A DNA stretch of 32,497 nt from Polyangium aurulentum (lineage in GTDB: Bacteria; Myxococcota_A; Polyangia; Polyangiales; Polyangiaceae). Numbering within the stretch: position 1 is the first letter of the stretch; each line of letters starts with the position of its first letter. Below the pieces are notes generated by a model. That model ran no database searches and was not told the DNA's origin. It saw nothing but the letters and a program-made list of their open reading frames with translations. Positions 24,587 through 30,649 of the stretch are shown here, piece by piece. The stretch is from the NCBI GenBank assembly GCA_945875545.1, contig CAMCKZ010000033.1, positions 1 to 32,497 on the forward strand, given 5' to 3'. The translations under genes were made by a program, and so were the position numbers.

Positions 24587-25561
24587 TTAGCGCCGAAGGA
24601 CGAGCATAAGACCCATGGCGCTGAGGGCGAGAACCACGAGTGACGTGACCAAAATGGCCAACTCGGCCTTCGTCGTAGCATCGGTCCCAGCGCCGTTTCG
24701 CGCGGTCTTGCGCGCCCGAGCATCGCGTGAAGCCTCGGTGGTATTTTTTCCTTCGGCGCCGACCGGAGGCGCCGCATCTCCGCTTGGTGGCCCCACAGAC
24801 TCGGGCTCCGGTGAAAGAATGGCGTCGGGCTCGGCTTCAATGGATGCCAGGGTTTTTCCTAGTGGATCGTCAAGTTCGAAGATGTTGTGGCCGAGGGTGA
24901 GCAGCGTTCCGAGCTTCCAGATGACGTCGCGTTTCGACGAAAGTTCCACCTCGCCGAGCAGGGTTCCGTTCTTGGAATTCAGGTCGCGCAGCAGCACCAC
25001 GCCGCCCCTTCGGGTGACCTGGGTCTGATCGCGTGAGACGTCGGTGTCGGTCAGAACGAGGTCGGCGTCGGCGTCGCGCCCGAGGCGGTACGCGCGGCCA
25101 TCTTCTTCCAAGCGAAGGCTCGCGCCCTTGTCGTCGCCCCCCGTGCACGTGAGGGTTGGAGTCGCGTCTATGTGGGATAATTCAAGGGATTCCGCAACGA
25201 GCCGCGACGCCAACTGGCGCGCCGCAATGGCCGGCTCGGGCTCCGGGGCAAACGTGCCGACGGTCACGCGCATGCGCACGCGACCCACGCGAAGCACGCT
25301 CGTCTTCTCGAGCGAGTGCGGTGCAACGGGCCGAACGGCCACCGCTCCGACGAAGGTTCCGTTCGTGCTTCGCTCGTCGCGCACGACGACGCGGTTGCCC
25401 GTGACCTCGATGGACGCGTGGCGCATCGAGACAGAAACCTCCGGCAGGCGAACATCCGACGACGCGCCCCTTCCTATGAGAATTCGCTGGCCATCGAGCA
25501 CGAGACTCGAACCCGTACGCGGCTCTCCGTCGTCATCGAGGACTTCAAAACGAACGGCCAT
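24587..25561 (-). CDS. Twin-FHA-domain protein with C-terminal membrane anchor
   Basis: FHA domains bind phosphothreonine peptides. The 324-residue product has two: FHA1 (about 26-98; ILIGRGASSDVRL, then RDERSTNGTFVG) and FHA2 (about 158-232; YRLGRDADADLVL, then RDLNSKNGTLLG). The NG(T) turns are intact in both. The usual S-R-x-H motif is altered: S-M-R-H in FHA1, S-R-D-Q in FHA2. An acidic, Pro-rich linker (233-298) leads to one transmembrane helix (301-321) ending in VLRR, so the protein should be tail-anchored with both FHA domains in the cytoplasm. The ATG at 25561 lies 7 bases after gshB; earlier in-frame codons run inside gshB and are rejected. No Ser/Thr kinase is encoded nearby. Confidence 0.88.
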   Translation of the reverse strand: MAVRFEVLDDDGEPRTGSSLVLDGQRILIGRGASSDVRLPEVSVSMRHASIEVTGNRVVVRDERSTNGTFVGAVAVRPVAPHSLEKTSVLRVGRVRMRVTVGTFAPEPEPAIAARQLASRLVAESLELSHIDATPTLTCTGGDDKGASLRLEEDGRAYRLGRDADADLVLTDTDVSRDQTQVTRRGGVVLLRDLNSKNGTLLGEVELSSKRDVIWKLGTLLTLGHNIFELDDPLGKTLASIEAEPDAILSPEPESVGPPSGDAAPPVGAEGKNTTEASRDARARKTARNGAGTDATTKAELAILVTSLVVLALSAMGLMLVLRR

Positions 25562-25568
25562 GCGGGTC

Positions 25569-26516
25569 TTAAAACCTCTTCGCGTGAACGCGATCGACGG
25601 CCCACTGAATGACCTCTTGGGCCACATCGCGACCAAGGTGCGCGGAGAGTTCTTGTATGCCAGTGGGTGAGGTGACGTTGACCTCCGTGAGTTTCTCGCC
25701 GACCAAATCGAGGCCCACAAAAAAGAGCCCATCGGCGACGAGACGCGGCGCTATCGCGTGCACGATCTCACGTTCGCGGTCGGTGAGTGTGCAGGGTTCG
25801 ACCCGGCCGCCCACGTGGATGTTCGATCGCAGGTCGTCGCCGCGGGGAATGCGGTTGATGGCACCCAGCAATTTTCCCTCGATCAAGAGCACGCGCTTGT
25901 CTCCTTCGACAACGCGCGGAAGGTACTCTTGCACCATCGCGAGCCGCGAGCCTTCTTGCGTCAGCATGTCGACAATGGACCGCGCGTTTTTGTCGGCCGT
26001 CGCGAGCTTTAGAACGCCGGAACCGCCTGCCCCATCGAGGGGTTTTATGACCGCCTCGCCGCCGACCTCTTTCACAAAATCGTGAATGCGATCGGGCCGC
26101 GACGTGACCAGGGTGCGCGGCGTAAACTGGGCAAAATGCAGGGCGTAAAGCTTTTCGTTGGCGTCGCGCAGGCCGCGCGGATCGTTCACCAAAAGGGTCT
26201 CGCCGCGCGCCCGTTCCAGCATCTGCGACGCGTGCAGGTACGCGCCGTCGAAGGGCGGATCTTTGCGCATGAAGACCGCGTGGGTTTCGCTGAGCGCCGT
26301 GTCGTGGGCTGGCCCAAGGCGAAAATGCGCATCGGCGTCGAAGACCTCACAGGCCTGAACCCGGGCAAAACACTGGCCGCGGTCAACAAAAAGGTCGCGC
26401 GGGTGGCACACGAAGGACTCGTGGCCGAGGGCCTGAGTCGCGCGAAGAAAGGCGAACGTTGTATCCTTGAAGCGATTGATGTGATCGAGGGGGTCCATCA
26501 CGTAAAGGAAACGCAT
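25569..26516 (-). CDS. gshB: GshB, glutathione synthetase
   Basis: GshB ligates glycine to gamma-glutamylcysteine using ATP, the second step of glutathione synthesis in the cytoplasm. The 315-residue protein, normal length, starts MRFLYVMDPLDHINRFKDTT, the conserved family N-terminus, which fixes the ATG at 26516. The ATP-grasp core is present: VIKPLDGAGGSGVLKL (about 155-170), MVQEYLP, GDKRVLLIEG, and the C-terminal LVGEKLTEVNVTSPTGIQEL carrying the Mg-binding Glu/Asn. No gshA is in the window. The start codon is one base from the divergent ggt start. Its ribosome binding site (CGGAGA, on the minus strand) lies in the first ggt codons, so its promoter must lie within ggt. Confidence 0.97.
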   Translation of the reverse strand: MRFLYVMDPLDHINRFKDTTFAFLRATQALGHESFVCHPRDLFVDRGQCFARVQACEVFDADAHFRLGPAHDTALSETHAVFMRKDPPFDGAYLHASQMLERARGETLLVNDPRGLRDANEKLYALHFAQFTPRTLVTSRPDRIHDFVKEVGGEAVIKPLDGAGGSGVLKLATADKNARSIVDMLTQEGSRLAMVQEYLPRVVEGDKRVLLIEGKLLGAINRIPRGDDLRSNIHVGGRVEPCTLTDREREIVHAIAPRLVADGLFFVGLDLVGEKLTEVNVTSPTGIQELSAHLGRDVAQEVIQWAVDRVHAKRF

Positions 26517-26517
26517 C

Positions 26518-28308
26518 GTGTTCTCCGTTCAAGCCACAAGCTTCTGGGCCAAGCTTTCGCTCCGTCTACCATGGCTCGCGTTCTCCGCGGCCCTTGTCGC
26601 GCCCTCCGCGGTGCTGGTGGTCTTGCTTCCGCCGCTGCTCTTCGCACCCTTGGCTCCGCGCACCGCGAGTGCCGCGGGCGATCGCGGTGTACTTGGAAAA
26701 AACCACGCCGTTTCTACGGACAGCCCCCTCGCAACCGAATCGGCGATGGCGGTTCTTGCGCGAGGCGGTGATGCGGTCGATGCGGCGGTGGCGGCCGTCG
26801 CCATGCTCGGCGTCGTGGCACCCGCAGGCAGCGGCATAGGCGGCGGCGGCTTCGCCCTCGTATGGCGCGCGAAAGAAAAAAAAGTCACCACCTTCGACTT
26901 TCGTGAGACCGCGCCGGCAGCCTTTGACGCCGCGGCCTTCGAGGCGCGCGAGGGGGCGAGCACCGAAGAAAAGTTGGCTTCGCGGGGCATGCTCGTGGGC
27001 GTGCCCGGCGAGGTGATGGGTCTCGTCACTCTGCATAACCGCTTCGGAAGACTCTCCCTCACAGATGACCTCGCGTACGCCGCAAAGGCTGCAAAAGACG
27101 GCTTTCCGCTCGGCCGCTACCTGGCCGAAGTCCTCCGCGGCGACCCGTTTAAGATTGCTTCGCACCCGAGCATCGGTCCCCTTTTTTTCGATGCTTCGAA
27201 TGCGGGCGCGCTCCGTGCGCGCGGAAGTATTTTGAGGCGACCCGCCCTCGCACGCACCCTCGACCGCCTCGGCGCCGAAGGGGCAACGGCATTCTACGAA
27301 GGCACCGTCGCCGCGCACATGGTCGCCGAGGCCCGGCGCTTCGGGTCGCTCATCACCCTCGCAGATTTTCAATCGCGATCGGTCATCGAGCGAGAGCCGT
27401 TGATGCGCACGTTTGGAACGCGTGCAGTCTACACGATGGGATCGCCTTCCGCCGGTGGCCTCATGCTGCTCGAAGCGCTGACGTTGCTCGGCGCGAGTCC
27501 GTCCGCGTCGGGGGCGAAGGCGGGCGCGGGATCAAGCACCTATCTTCATGAAATTGCAGAGATAATGCGCGGCGCGTTGGCCGACAGACTGGTCGCCGTT
27601 GGAGATCCCGCCGTGGACGCAGCGGCCCGCGAACGCTTGGACCGCATGGTCGACCGCAAGCGTCTTGAAGCGCGGGCCGCACACCGCAACCCCGCGCGGG
27701 CGCATGCGGCAACCGAGTACGCGGGCCGCGAGCGGGGCACGAGTCATGTGCTCGTGGCCGACGACGACGGCAACATCGTGTCGCTCACGACGACCGTGAA
27801 CGGACCTTTTGGAGCGCGCATCGAGACCGAAGACGGCGTTCTTTTGAACGACGAACTCGATGACTTCACCACCCGGGCGGAGGCCAAATTGTTTCTTGGA
27901 GACGCCGCGTCGCCCAATCGCCCGCGAGCCCTCGCGCGGCCCGTTTCGAGCATGATGCCGACCCTGATTCTCGAGGACGGAGAGCCCTTTTTTGCCCTCG
28001 GCGGCTCCGGCGGTCGACGCATCGCCACCGCGTGCACGCAGGTCGCTTTGCGCGCATTGCTCTTCGGAGACGATGCGGCGGAGGCCGTAGGTGCCCCGCG
28101 AATTCACGTCGGCGCGGGGCTCGAGCTTCTTCTCGAAAAAGACATTTCGCCGGATGTACAAGCGGCGCTGCGGGCGCGGGGTCACGAGCCAAAACGCGAC
28201 ACGATGAAGGCCGCGGTGCAGGCCATGCGCTTCACGCGCGAAGGCAACGAACGGCTCATCGAAGCAGCGGCGGACCCGCGGAAATACGGGCAAGCAGCCG
28301 CTCAGTAG
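26518..28308 (+). CDS. ggt: Gamma-glutamyltransferase (glutathione hydrolase)
   Basis: This Ntn-hydrolase cleaves the gamma-glutamyl bond of exported glutathione in the periplasm. The 596-residue precursor has an N-terminal signal peptide or anchor (hydrophobic 17-45, ending TASA-AG). The family motifs are FRETAPAAF (128-136; Arg129 binds the gamma-glutamyl carboxylate), GSGIGGGGFALV, GVPGEVMGL and SPSAGGLMLLEAL. The autocleavage and catalytic Thr408 is in RGTSHVLVADDDGNIVS. GGSGGRRI stands for the usual oxyanion-site GSPGGSRI. The GTG at 26518 is the only possible upstream start because an in-frame TAA sits at 26503. AAAGGA (26504-26509) in gshB serves as ribosome binding site. Confidence 0.93.
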   Translation: MFSVQATSFWAKLSLRLPWLAFSAALVAPSAVLVVLLPPLLFAPLAPRTASAAGDRGVLGKNHAVSTDSPLATESAMAVLARGGDAVDAAVAAVAMLGVVAPAGSGIGGGGFALVWRAKEKKVTTFDFRETAPAAFDAAAFEAREGASTEEKLASRGMLVGVPGEVMGLVTLHNRFGRLSLTDDLAYAAKAAKDGFPLGRYLAEVLRGDPFKIASHPSIGPLFFDASNAGALRARGSILRRPALARTLDRLGAEGATAFYEGTVAAHMVAEARRFGSLITLADFQSRSVIEREPLMRTFGTRAVYTMGSPSAGGLMLLEALTLLGASPSASGAKAGAGSSTYLHEIAEIMRGALADRLVAVGDPAVDAAARERLDRMVDRKRLEARAAHRNPARAHAATEYAGRERGTSHVLVADDDGNIVSLTTTVNGPFGARIETEDGVLLNDELDDFTTRAEAKLFLGDAASPNRPRALARPVSSMMPTLILEDGEPFFALGGSGGRRIATACTQVALRALLFGDDAAEAVGAPRIHVGAGLELLLEKDISPDVQAALRARGHEPKRDTMKAAVQAMRFTREGNERLIEAAADPRKYGQAAAQ

Positions 28309-28404: not shown

Positions 28405-29295
28405 TTACGGCGACGCCACGTAGCGCACGAGTTCGACCGCCTGGGCCTCGTTCACGTCGCCGGAGAGCGCGTAGCCAATGCCGTTGTCTTCCATGACGGC
28501 GACGGGCATCCCTTGGGTTCGCGTGGTGCGCACTTGGTGAATCTCCTGCGAATCTCCACGCATTAACACCGACGGCAGGTGAATACGGCGCGGATCGAAG
28601 ACCAGCACACTGATGCGCCGCGGGGCACCAGCGCCGCCGCCTTCGGGCACAAGCTCGTATTGCACAATCGCCGCGCGCTCTTTCTGAACGGGCACAATAC
28701 GCGCGCCCACGAGCCGGGCCCGGCTTGGGGGGAAGTGCTTTCGAAGCGGTATTCCGATGTATTGTTCAAGGCCTTGCACCGTCTGTATATCGATGCCGTC
28801 CATCGGCAACGGGTGCACATGCTCGGCCACCAATTCGCGAAGCGCGTCGTCGTCGTCTCCGCTCACCGCGAGGGCCTCGCGCGGCGCCTCTCGTGCAAGA
28901 AGGCCCGGAAAAGGGCCCGCAAAAAGGCCCGGAATAAGATGCGGCACCACCAGAAACGCAGCGGCGATAGCGGCAACGAGGCCGAACGAAAGACCAACGA
29001 CGGCACTTCGCGTTCGGGGCGAACTTGTGCCGGCCGCCCGCGGAGACGGCGTACGAGCCATCTCTGCTTCCATGGATTTTCGCAGTCGAGAACGGGCTTC
29101 GTTGCCCATCGGCGCACACGTAAGCTCGCGCACCGAGGCCTTCAAAGCGCGGCCGAGCGCCACCCGTTCGCGGCAGTGCGCGCAGCTTGCGACGTGCCGT
29201 TCGCCCTCGATGAGCGCCGAGGGCTCGAGCTCGCCGTCGAGAAAACTTTCGACGACGCGCACGAACGACCGGCACCCGGGAGACGACGGAGTCAC
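28405..29295 (-). CDS. Membrane zinc-finger anti-sigma factor
   Basis: This is the probable membrane anti-sigma factor for the ECF sigma gene just upstream. The 296-residue product has an N-terminal zinc-binding anti-sigma (ZAS) motif H-x3-C-x2-C (His34, Cys38, Cys41 in HVASCAHCRERV). One transmembrane helix (about 98-120) follows, then a periplasmic domain of about 170 residues with no recognisable fold. In this family the ZAS domain holds the sigma factor until a signal triggers release or proteolysis. The start is a GTG overlapping the sigma TGA (GTGA), so the two are translationally coupled. The signal sensed is unknown. Confidence 0.88.
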   Translation of the reverse strand: MTPSSPGCRSFVRVVESFLDGELEPSALIEGERHVASCAHCRERVALGRALKASVRELTCAPMGNEARSRLRKSMEAEMARTPSPRAAGTSSPRTRSAVVGLSFGLVAAIAAAFLVVPHLIPGLFAGPFPGLLAREAPREALAVSGDDDDALRELVAEHVHPLPMDGIDIQTVQGLEQYIGIPLRKHFPPSRARLVGARIVPVQKERAAIVQYELVPEGGGAGAPRRISVLVFDPRRIHLPSVLMRGDSQEIHQVRTTRTQGMPVAVMEDNGIGYALSGDVNEAQAVELVRYVASP

Positions 29296-29951
29296 GGCGT
29301 GCCCCGGAATTTCTTTTCACGAAATGCCTGAAGATTTGCAGGCGGTTCGCTCTTCGCGTCGCCGGCAGCGTGCCCGTCGGCCTTGGTTATGCCGAGGCTT
29401 CTGCCCTGCTCGATGAGAACTTTTTGAAGCATCTTGCGGCCTCGATGCACGCGGCTCATGACCGTGCCCATCGGAATCGAAAGTGCCGACGCGGCCTCTT
29501 CGTAGGTGAAGTCTTGCGCGTCGATCAGAATCACGGCCATGCGAAAGTCTTCGGGCAAGAGCTCGAGGGCGCGTTCGAGTTCGGCGCGCAAAAGTGAGGA
29601 AATAGCCACCTGTTCTGGGTCGCGCAGTTGGCGCATGGTCTCGGCGCTGACCCACCCGTCGGAAATCGGATCGACCTCAGGGCCGTCGAAGGTGGCGCGT
29701 TCGAGCCCCGCGCGGCGGTAACGACTCACCCACAAGTTCGTCAAAATGCGAAAGAGCCAACTGCGGAGATTGGTGCCCGGCGCAAATTGGTCGCGGCCCT
29801 TGATGGCCTTCAAAAGCGTTTCTTGGACGAGGTCTTCGGCCAACGCGGCATCGCGGCACATGCGACGCGCCACGCCGTTGAGCGCATCGGCGTAGCCAAT
29901 GGCCTCGTCAAGGAAGGCGTCGTCGCTCGGGCGGCTGGAACGTAGAAACAT
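29292..29951 (-). CDS. ECF-family (RpoE-like) RNA polymerase sigma factor
   Basis: This 219-residue sigma factor of the extracytoplasmic-function group has region 2 at about residues 15-82 (AEDLVQETLLKAI, then TNLRSWLFRILTNLWVSRYRR) for -10 recognition. Region 4 lies at about 122-176 (LELLPEDFRMAVILIDAQDF, then EEAASALSIPMGTVMSRVHR), the helix-turn-helix for -35 recognition. A 40-residue C-terminal extension, absent from RpoE, follows. The ATG at 29951 is preferred because upstream in-frame codons are not homologous. It is cotranscribed with the zinc-finger anti-sigma factor. The upstream 108 bases contain a tandem 10-bp repeat and a GGAAC sequence resembling an ECF -35 element, so autoregulation is possible. 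Confidence 0.92.
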   Translation of the reverse strand: MFLRSSRPSDDAFLDEAIGYADALNGVARRMCRDAALAEDLVQETLLKAIKGRDQFAPGTNLRSWLFRILTNLWVSRYRRAGLERATFDGPEVDPISDGWVSAETMRQLRDPEQVAISSLLRAELERALELLPEDFRMAVILIDAQDFTYEEAASALSIPMGTVMSRVHRGRKMLQKVLIEQGRSLGITKADGHAAGDAKSEPPANLQAFREKKFRGTP

Positions 29952-30019
29952 GGGTGTCTCGGAAACGCGGGAACACCCCAAGCTATTCCGCGCGCCGTAA
30001 AAAACCAGCGTTCCTGTCC

Positions 30020-30059
30020 TAAACCGGCGTAAACGGGCGTAAACCGGCGTAAACCGGTC
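30020..30059 (-). repeat. Four tandem copies of a 10-bp unit upstream of the ECF sigma gene
   Basis: On the plus strand the units read TAAACCGGCG, TAAACGGGCG, TAAACCGGCG and TAAACCGGTC, with no gaps. A period of ten bases, about one helical turn, places every copy on the same face of the helix, as in operator arrays. The array starts at the phaR stop codon and ends 69 bases before the sigma ATG. Confidence 0.85.
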
Positions 30060-30649
30060 TAGCTCTTGCCGTTCGTGTCGGTGCCTTTTTTCTCGAGCGA
30101 AAGAATGCGCGAACGCAGCTGCCGCACTTCTTCTTGCAGCTCTTGCCACGGCTTAAACGACGGCATCACGCTGCGCAGGCGATCGTCAAAGCGGTTCTGC
30201 CAGTCTTCGATGGTCTCGCGCGCTTGATCGACGATCTTTGGCGAGGTCTTGGCTGGCTCGGGAATCGCCGCGCCGTCCGCGTGCTGGCCCATATCGGGCT
30301 GACTCTTACGCTCTCCGGGGATCAATCGCCCCATCGGGCCTTCGCGCAGCTCGTTCAGAACCTTGCCCGTACGCTGGTGAATGATCTCTTTCAGCGTCTG
30401 GAGCGGCACGAGGCGCGAAGCGTTTTTCTGCTCCTCAAAAATGATCTGCGCCAACGTGATCTCGGTCAGATCGTCTTTTGAGTTGTTGTCGATGATCTGA
30501 ACTTCTTGCCCCGCCCGCACAAACTCGGCGATTTGCAGAAGCGTCACGTACCGGCTCTCGCGCGTGTCGTAGAGCTTGCGGTTCGAGTAGCGTTTGATGA
30601 CGCGGCGGTTTGGGTCCGTTGGGGGCGTGCTAGGCGTCTGAGATTCCAC
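30059..30649 (-). CDS. phaR: PhaR-type polyhydroxyalkanoate accumulation regulator
   Basis: PhaR-type proteins are DNA-binding repressors that sense polyhydroxyalkanoate granules and control phasin genes and often their own gene. The 196-residue product carries the PHB/PHA accumulation regulator DNA-binding domain (residues 16-75: RVIKRYSNRKLYDTRESRYV, then LTEITLAQIIFEEQ). The C-terminal half has a helix rich in Gln, Glu and Arg (about 137-190, a probable coiled coil), as expected for a granule- or oligomer-binding part. No pha synthase or phasin gene is nearby, so the target is unknown. A 15-bp palindrome lies 75 bases upstream of its start. The TAG overlaps the 10-bp repeat array. Confidence 0.88.
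   Translation of the reverse strand: MESQTPSTPPTDPNRRVIKRYSNRKLYDTRESRYVTLLQIAEFVRAGQEVQIIDNNSKDDLTEITLAQIIFEEQKNASRLVPLQTLKEIIHQRTGKVLNELREGPMGRLIPGERKSQPDMGQHADGAAIPEPAKTSPKIVDQARETIEDWQNRFDDRLRSVMPSFKPWQELQEEVRQLRSRILSLEKKGTDTNGKS

Follow-up and report, generated by a model that had tools for sequence, protein, structure and literature searches.

How are two genes transcribed in opposite directions when their start codons lie a single base apart? The question is raised by a 32,497-nucleotide stretch of Polyangium aurulentum DNA (GenBank assembly GCA_945875545.1, contig CAMCKZ010000033.1, positions 1 to 32,497), referred to here as the window, in which a glutathione synthase gene (gshB) and a gene of the gamma-glutamyltranspeptidase family (ggt) diverge from a junction that reads CATCGTG at 26514-26520 of the plus strand. 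A first-pass annotation had placed the gshB ATG and the ggt GTG one base apart on opposite strands, and these coordinates proved exact. Its placement of both candidate ribosome binding sites in the first codons of the other gene agrees with the coordinates as well.

25569..26516, minus strand: gshB, glutathione synthase, 315 amino acids, start codon ATG at 26516-26514; Pfam PF02951 and PF02955, NCBIfam equivalogs NF003573 and TIGR01380.
26518..28308, plus strand: ggt, gamma-glutamyltranspeptidase family, 596 amino acids, start codon GTG at 26518-26520; PF01019.
26517, no strand: the one base that separates the start codons, at the position which in 13 of the 20 interlocked clade rows described below is the G of the shared CATG.
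26504..26509, plus strand: AAAGGA, candidate Shine-Dalgarno sequence of ggt, within gshB codons 3-5; kept in congener L003, AAAGAA in congener L004.
26522..26527, minus strand: CGGAGA, candidate Shine-Dalgarno sequence of gshB, within ggt codons 2-4; GGAG kept in 3/3 congeners.

With a gap of +1 and no bases in common, the pair in the window does not belong to the class of divergent coding overlaps. Because there is no intergenic space at the junction, both promoters would have to be intragenic, as the first-pass annotation had argued from the geometry, and the codon choice on both strands that is described below agrees with that claim.

The gshB product falls in the GshB family, with GSH-S_N and GSH-S_ATP domains and scores above the cut-offs for TIGR01380 (357.8 versus 299.05) and NF003573 (366.2 versus 272). 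The ggt product falls in the GGT family (PF01019, G_glu_transpept, 445.4 versus 27 bits), and its residues 60-590 align to Escherichia coli GGT 2e0w (E 4e-67) through the large and small chains. Its N-terminus was judged by eye to be a signal peptide. The score for the gamma-glutamyltransferase equivalog TIGR00066 was below the cut-off (332.3 versus 357.85 bits), and for this reason the substrate may differ from glutathione. Glutathione is a likely but not certain substrate for a protein that scores below the NCBIfam equivalog and far above the Pfam cut-off. This ggt is the sole PF01019 match in the genome assembly (97.5% complete). A GCS2-type glutamate-cysteine ligase candidate is located on another contig of the same genome, and thus the glutathione synthesis pathway may be complete.

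The in-frame TAA at 26503-26505, which had been taken to fix the ggt start, is in the ggt frame and provides an upstream bound on the start, but does not by itself fix it. The start at 26518 is supported by L003 and L004, two congeners with a GTG at the corresponding position and, from the stop to the conserved enzyme region, no further in-frame ATG, GTG, or TTG that would leave a signal peptide. AAAGGA, which had been proposed as the ggt ribosome site, is not conserved. The sequence is altered in L004, and no Shine-Dalgarno match for ggt was found in 10 of the 16 interlocked loci listed, so AAAGGA was rejected as a conserved element. The ggt starts in relatives were assigned by us from the frame and the signal peptide.

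The arrangement is rare within the genome. In 432 kb, window included, in which 284 genes were called, only one of 39 divergent pairs had a gap of 5 or less, and that pair was gshB-ggt. The 5% quantile of the divergent gaps in the same sequence was 26 and the median 178, values to be read with the caveat that our own gene caller was crude (0.66 genes per kb), missing genes and inflating the larger gaps. The near-zero gap is more than chance because of this rarity and because a clade of relatives has conserved the arrangement.

That conservation was evaluated in the family of the window genome and its relatives, which we take to be the Polyangiaceae. A search at E 1e-60 detected gshB in 98 of the 108 genomes of the family, and 119 loci (from the family, from the order, and four without a genome handle) were oriented at the gshB start. 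Named copies (L032, L033, and L035-L039), a paralogue (L002), and a duplicate of the window locus (L097) were left out before counting. A divergent ggt was found upstream of gshB at 74 of the 119 loci by tblastn, and at L111 by eye. The gshB tree had 115 rows, without L034 (whose first 50 ggt residues are the same as those of L089) and L040-L042, which lack a genome handle. Rows with a plausible ggt start at -20 to +5 of the gshB start were labelled interlocked, by hand and before codon 18 of the relatives was printed. Among the named contigs, those of the two congeners (isolates ErkenSummer_bin-0132 and Kiruna3_bin-1548) carry the label uncultured delta proteobacterium; several others are labelled Myxococcales bacterium.

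Of the 115 rows, 21 were interlocked, and 20 of these belong to one 38-row clade (support 100/95). ggt lies alongside gshB in 24 rows of the clade: the 20 interlocked rows, one ambiguous row (L006), and three with wider gaps. Outside the clade none of 40 ggt-linked family rows was interlocked, and one more was ambiguous. Thus, the conservation of the junction in relatives, which had been suggested as a check, is borne out by abutting or overlapping starts in 20 clade rows. The predominant form among them is a shared CATG, in which the two ATGs overlap by two bases (13 rows); the others are gaps of +1 (three rows, the genus of the window), 0 (two rows), and +3 (one row), and L084, so that the gap ranges from -20 to +3. 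The CATCGTG of the window may be the CATG form with the ggt start shifted by one codon in the same frame. CATG alone was rejected as evidence, since an in-frame ATG can arise there by chance, and is present but probably unused in L124, L163, and L165. In L084 (genus g26) there is no ggt start at the junction; the best ATG is 20 nt inside gshB, which would give a longer coding overlap on opposite strands.

In the other 14 rows of the clade, ggt was scored as absent from the junction. In one of these, L012, the contig ends 176 nt from gshB and the neighbour is unseen; this row was counted as ggt-less in the codon 18 tally and left out of the recoding test and the tree-aware fit. By eye the upstream frames of L099 contain no GGT, and those of L111 do show GGT; L111 was wrongly counted as ggt-less in the tallies. 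Six non-interlocked loci (L009, L014, L017, L020, L025, and L045) have CTAGGATGC in common in the gap between gshB and ggt. It is possibly one pseudo-symmetric -10 element serving both genes, and the junction could have had this form earlier.

A candidate -10 element for ggt was noted within gshB before codons were tallied in the relatives.

26462..26467, plus strand: TATCCT, candidate -10 of ggt, antisense of gshB codons Lys17-Asp18-Thr19.

TATCCT needs GAT at gshB Asp18, and the choice of codon 18 therefore bears on the candidate. The GAT/GAC counts were 17/3 in interlocked rows, 4/10 in rows of the same clade without an adjacent ggt, and 3/57 in the family outside the clade. Codon 18 ranked first of the 315 gshB codons in both comparisons, with p of 1.1e-11 against the family (next most extreme codon, 4.6e-5) and 0.0014 within the clade (0.006 without L012 and L099), in tallies of relatives that are not independent. 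The three wide-gap clade rows have GAC and the ambiguous L006 has GAT. In a tree-aware dependent-trait model (FastTree, 100 rows, 12 random starts) dependence of GAT on interlocking gave an LRT of 20.3 (2 df, p 4e-5). The reverse dependence, of interlocking on GAT, fitted nearly as well (LRT 18.5), and thus the model indicates association, not direction. Three interlocked rows (L004, L043, and L082) nevertheless have GAC. Within the genus TATCCT is intact in the window alone; L003 has AATCCT, with GAT, and L004 has AGTCCT, so that of the two congeners one has a weakened version of the putative ggt -10 and the other has lost it. No -35 was recognized by eye upstream of TATCCT, and a consensus scan of 26300-26760 found no full sigma-70 promoter (-35/-10). 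Codon 8 of gshB, which is Asp in the window, ends in A or T in 16 of 20 interlocked rows, all GAT, and in 13 of 19 outside-clade family rows without ggt; such endings are common there regardless of ggt, against the bias toward GC-ending codons elsewhere.

A corresponding candidate for gshB lies within the signal-peptide codons of ggt.

26563..26571, minus strand: TGGTAGACG, candidate extended -10 of gshB, antisense of ggt codons 16-18 (CGT CTA CCA, Arg-Leu-Pro).

The TA of TGGTAGACG precedes the gshB start by 52 nt. All 3 congeners retain CTACCATGGCT amid diverged sequence, and the window -10 ends in G, not T. The complements of the leucine codons CTA and TTA, TAG and TAA, begin -10-like hexamers of gshB. 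In interlocked ggt genes CTA or TTA accounts for 21 of 108 Leu codons in codons 2-32 and for 14 of 820 in the remainder of the gene; the corresponding counts are 8 of 203 in the N-termini of non-interlocked ggt genes and 45 of 992 in the N-termini of the genes called in the window genome. At least one CTA or TTA is found in ggt codons 2-32 of 19 of the 20 interlocked rows.

The codon signature was evaluated on both strands with 300 synonymous recodings that kept the protein and the codon usage of each locus, counting antisense TANNNT. This general motif was used beside TATC[CT]T and TA[GA][GC].T, which had been chosen after looking. In gshB codons 7-27, TANNNT was found in 16 of 20 interlocked loci, compared with 7.0 under the null and with none of 300 recodings as high. 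Clade rows without ggt (4 of 13 versus 4.2) and wide-gap rows (0 of 3 versus 0.7) were at the null, and the family outside the clade was depleted (5 of 59 versus 20.2). In ggt codons 5-25 the motif was found in 14 of 20 interlocked loci versus 1.8 (0/300 as high) and in 1 of 43 non-interlocked loci versus 2.7; the latter set also draws on other families of the order, and its starts were assigned by rule. Internal control segments of the 20 interlocked loci gave 3 versus 1.9 (gshB codons 101-121), 0 versus 1.7 (gshB codons 201-221), 1 versus 1.2 (ggt codons 61-81), and 0 versus 2.8 (ggt codons 111-131). One gshB control segment, codons 41-61, was above the null (7 of 20 versus 1.9, 0/300 as high), perhaps because of a second ggt promoter or a locally weaker codon bias.

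With a near-zero gap, its conservation across the clade, and a codon signature that points to an embedded -10 on each strand, the reading that we consider the most probable, with better than even confidence, is an interlocked divergent pair whose embedded promoters face each other, whose mRNAs overlap at their 5' ends, and whose expression is coupled negatively in both directions. No usable intergenic region would remain, and each core promoter would lie within the first 20-odd codons of the other gene and face it, that of ggt with its -10 in gshB codons 17-19 and that of gshB with its -10 in the ggt signal-peptide codons. The predicted -10 elements, for which no -35 was found, are apart and facing (26462-26467 on the plus strand, 26563-26568 on the minus strand). 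A shared back-to-back promoter between the genes was rejected, there being no space for one. What we infer from this layout is where transcription starts, that the transcripts overlap, and that the coupling is negative.

26474..26556, no strand: predicted 5' overlap of the two mRNAs, with transcription starts set by rule 7 nt downstream of each -10.

A polymerase leaving either promoter would cross the other within about 100 bp. The 5' ends of the two mRNAs would be complementary over about 80 nt, a stretch that takes in both start codons and ribosome sites. The overlapping antisense 5' ends proposed in the first-pass annotation follow, as a prediction, from promoters that lie inside both genes. 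Collision or occlusion at the promoters, possibly with RNA pairing, could then couple glutathione synthesis and breakdown negatively, and by analogy with phage 186 pR-pL and scbA-scbR the stronger promoter would be expected to depress the weaker. Opposing control through interference or RNA pairing, also proposed earlier, is plausible from the geometry. A bolder version, which we regard as doubtful, is a spacer-free toggle with promoters written as synonymous codons, in which the synthase and a secreted GGT would alternate, either kept from an ancestor of two families or evolved twice with Asp18 GAT.

A rival reading places the true ggt start downstream, at GTG 26611 or later, with ordinary spacing and no overlap. 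The window does contain GTG codons at gaps of 94 and 100, but these leave no charged n-region, and L003 and L004 lack such a codon; in them the GTG at gap +1 alone precedes the conserved LPWL stretch. Furthermore, in L010, L083, and L089 the enzyme motif and the gshB start are just 172-181 nt apart, and the overlapping ATG is the sole start listed that gives a charged signal peptide, bar a TTG deeper in gshB in L010. The downstream start was rejected on the n-region and on L003 and L004, and we consider it very improbable. It is also unlikely, to a lesser degree, that Asp18 GAT and the low-GC first codons serve gshB translation or a protein-binding site rather than a ggt -10. In its favour, AT-rich codons are frequent at the beginning of genes, the search for a -35 found none, and codon 8 leans to GAT also in rows without ggt. 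However, GAT at codon 18 goes with an abutting ggt, not with gshB itself, and the outside-clade family rows are depleted of antisense TANNNT rather than enriched. A regulator site in the codon 18 region is possible.

The strongest competitor, to which we give somewhat less than an even chance, is tolerated compaction: an ancestor lost the spacer, selection keeps each promoter working, and the overlap has no regulatory role. Keeping two promoters accounts for all of the codon evidence equally well, the link is not essential (in 14 of 38 clade rows no ggt was scored beside gshB), and the gap varies from -20 to +3. Yet the gap is near zero in 20 of the 24 ggt-linked clade rows, although a downstream start would open it, and it is near zero also in genomes of 12.2-13.6 Mb (G021, G059, and G130), in which compaction is unexpected. 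The CATG form, moreover, is also found in a second family.

That second family supplies the 21st interlocked row, L070, from another family of the order. In four of its five genomes (L063, L070, L150, and L151) ggt adjoins gshB with an in-frame ATG at CATG; no ggt was found beside gshB in the fifth, L075. Other ggt starts are also possible, an ATG at gap 97 in L063 and a GTG at gap 70 in L150. L151, with ggt at the contig end, was missed by tblastn, and L063 was labelled not interlocked in the tree and in the non-interlocked ggt comparison sets. Asp18 is GAT in all four genomes with ggt and GAC in the lone genome without it. The other 14 rows from other families have GAC. Among further order-level loci with ggt, besides L150, codon 18 is GAC in six (L153, L154, L157, L161, L163, and L165), and L163 and L165 combine GAC with an in-frame ATG at CATG, the likelier start being an ATG at 49-52. 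L166 and L167 have GAT without a junction of the CATG type. In these two loci, from another family, the ggt frame runs into gshB (ATG at -17 and -20, TTG at 16) and Asp18 GAT is preceded by Glu17; they are possibly another interlocked form.

Nothing on the gshB-ggt gene pair was found in the open-access literature by title or listing. Among the closest counterparts is scbA-scbR of Streptomyces coelicolor, adjacent genes with face-to-face promoters and overlapping transcripts, for which a model with polymerase collision and antisense pairing yields a switch (PMC3134472); the overlap of gshB-ggt transcripts is predicted. scbA-scbR is concerned with butyrolactone signalling, whereas gshB-ggt comprises two opposed enzymes with no spacer and comparative evidence. 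At the close convergent promoters pR-pL of phage 186, interference is mainly of the sitting-duck type and 5.6-fold at pL (PMC6593788). That switch has a repressor and was measured, unlike the gshB-ggt promoters, which are predicted and lie each in the coding sequence of the other gene. In the Listeria excludon and in antisense RNAs with 5' UTR overlap, divergent genes with related or opposite roles have one mRNA antisense to the other (PMC4179725). The antisense RNA of an excludon is remarkably long and spans neighbouring genes; the overlap predicted for gshB-ggt, roughly 80 nt, would be closer to the class with 5' UTR overlap. In bidirectional -10 promoters, as would hold for the predicted gshB-ggt arrangement, one short region serves both directions. 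Their start sites are usually 18 bp apart (7-25 bp) and diverge from a shared -10 (PMC10268837), in contrast to the candidate gshB-ggt promoters, which lie about 100 bp from each other and point inwards. Overlaps between divergent genes have been described as strongly under-represented, probably since both upstream regions need regulatory sequence (PMC2174442), and 75 of 75 divergent overlaps longer than 60 bp that were examined were judged to be annotation errors (PMC2478687).

The gshB-ggt pair thus provides a short conserved divergent junction with codon-level evidence for upstream regions written into the codons of the neighbour. The genomes form a natural series, interlocked, wider, and with ggt gone, along which gshB codon 18 tracks the neighbour. 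The pair is a concrete, testable case in which opposed enzymes of one metabolite are possibly wired through promoter geometry.

Genes on either side of the pair were also noted. The longest open reading frame of an FHA-domain gene (24587-25732, minus strand) overlaps gshB, but has an internal ATG at 25561 (MAVRFEVL...) just past the gshB stop at 25571-25569; with the ATG so close to the stop, the two genes look like a single operon. Beyond the 3' end of ggt, at 28405-30149 on the minus strand, there is an ECF-like sigma factor gene (Sigma70_r2 and r4) followed by an anti-sigma-like gene, whose product gave no Pfam match and by eye has a Cys/His-rich N-terminus.
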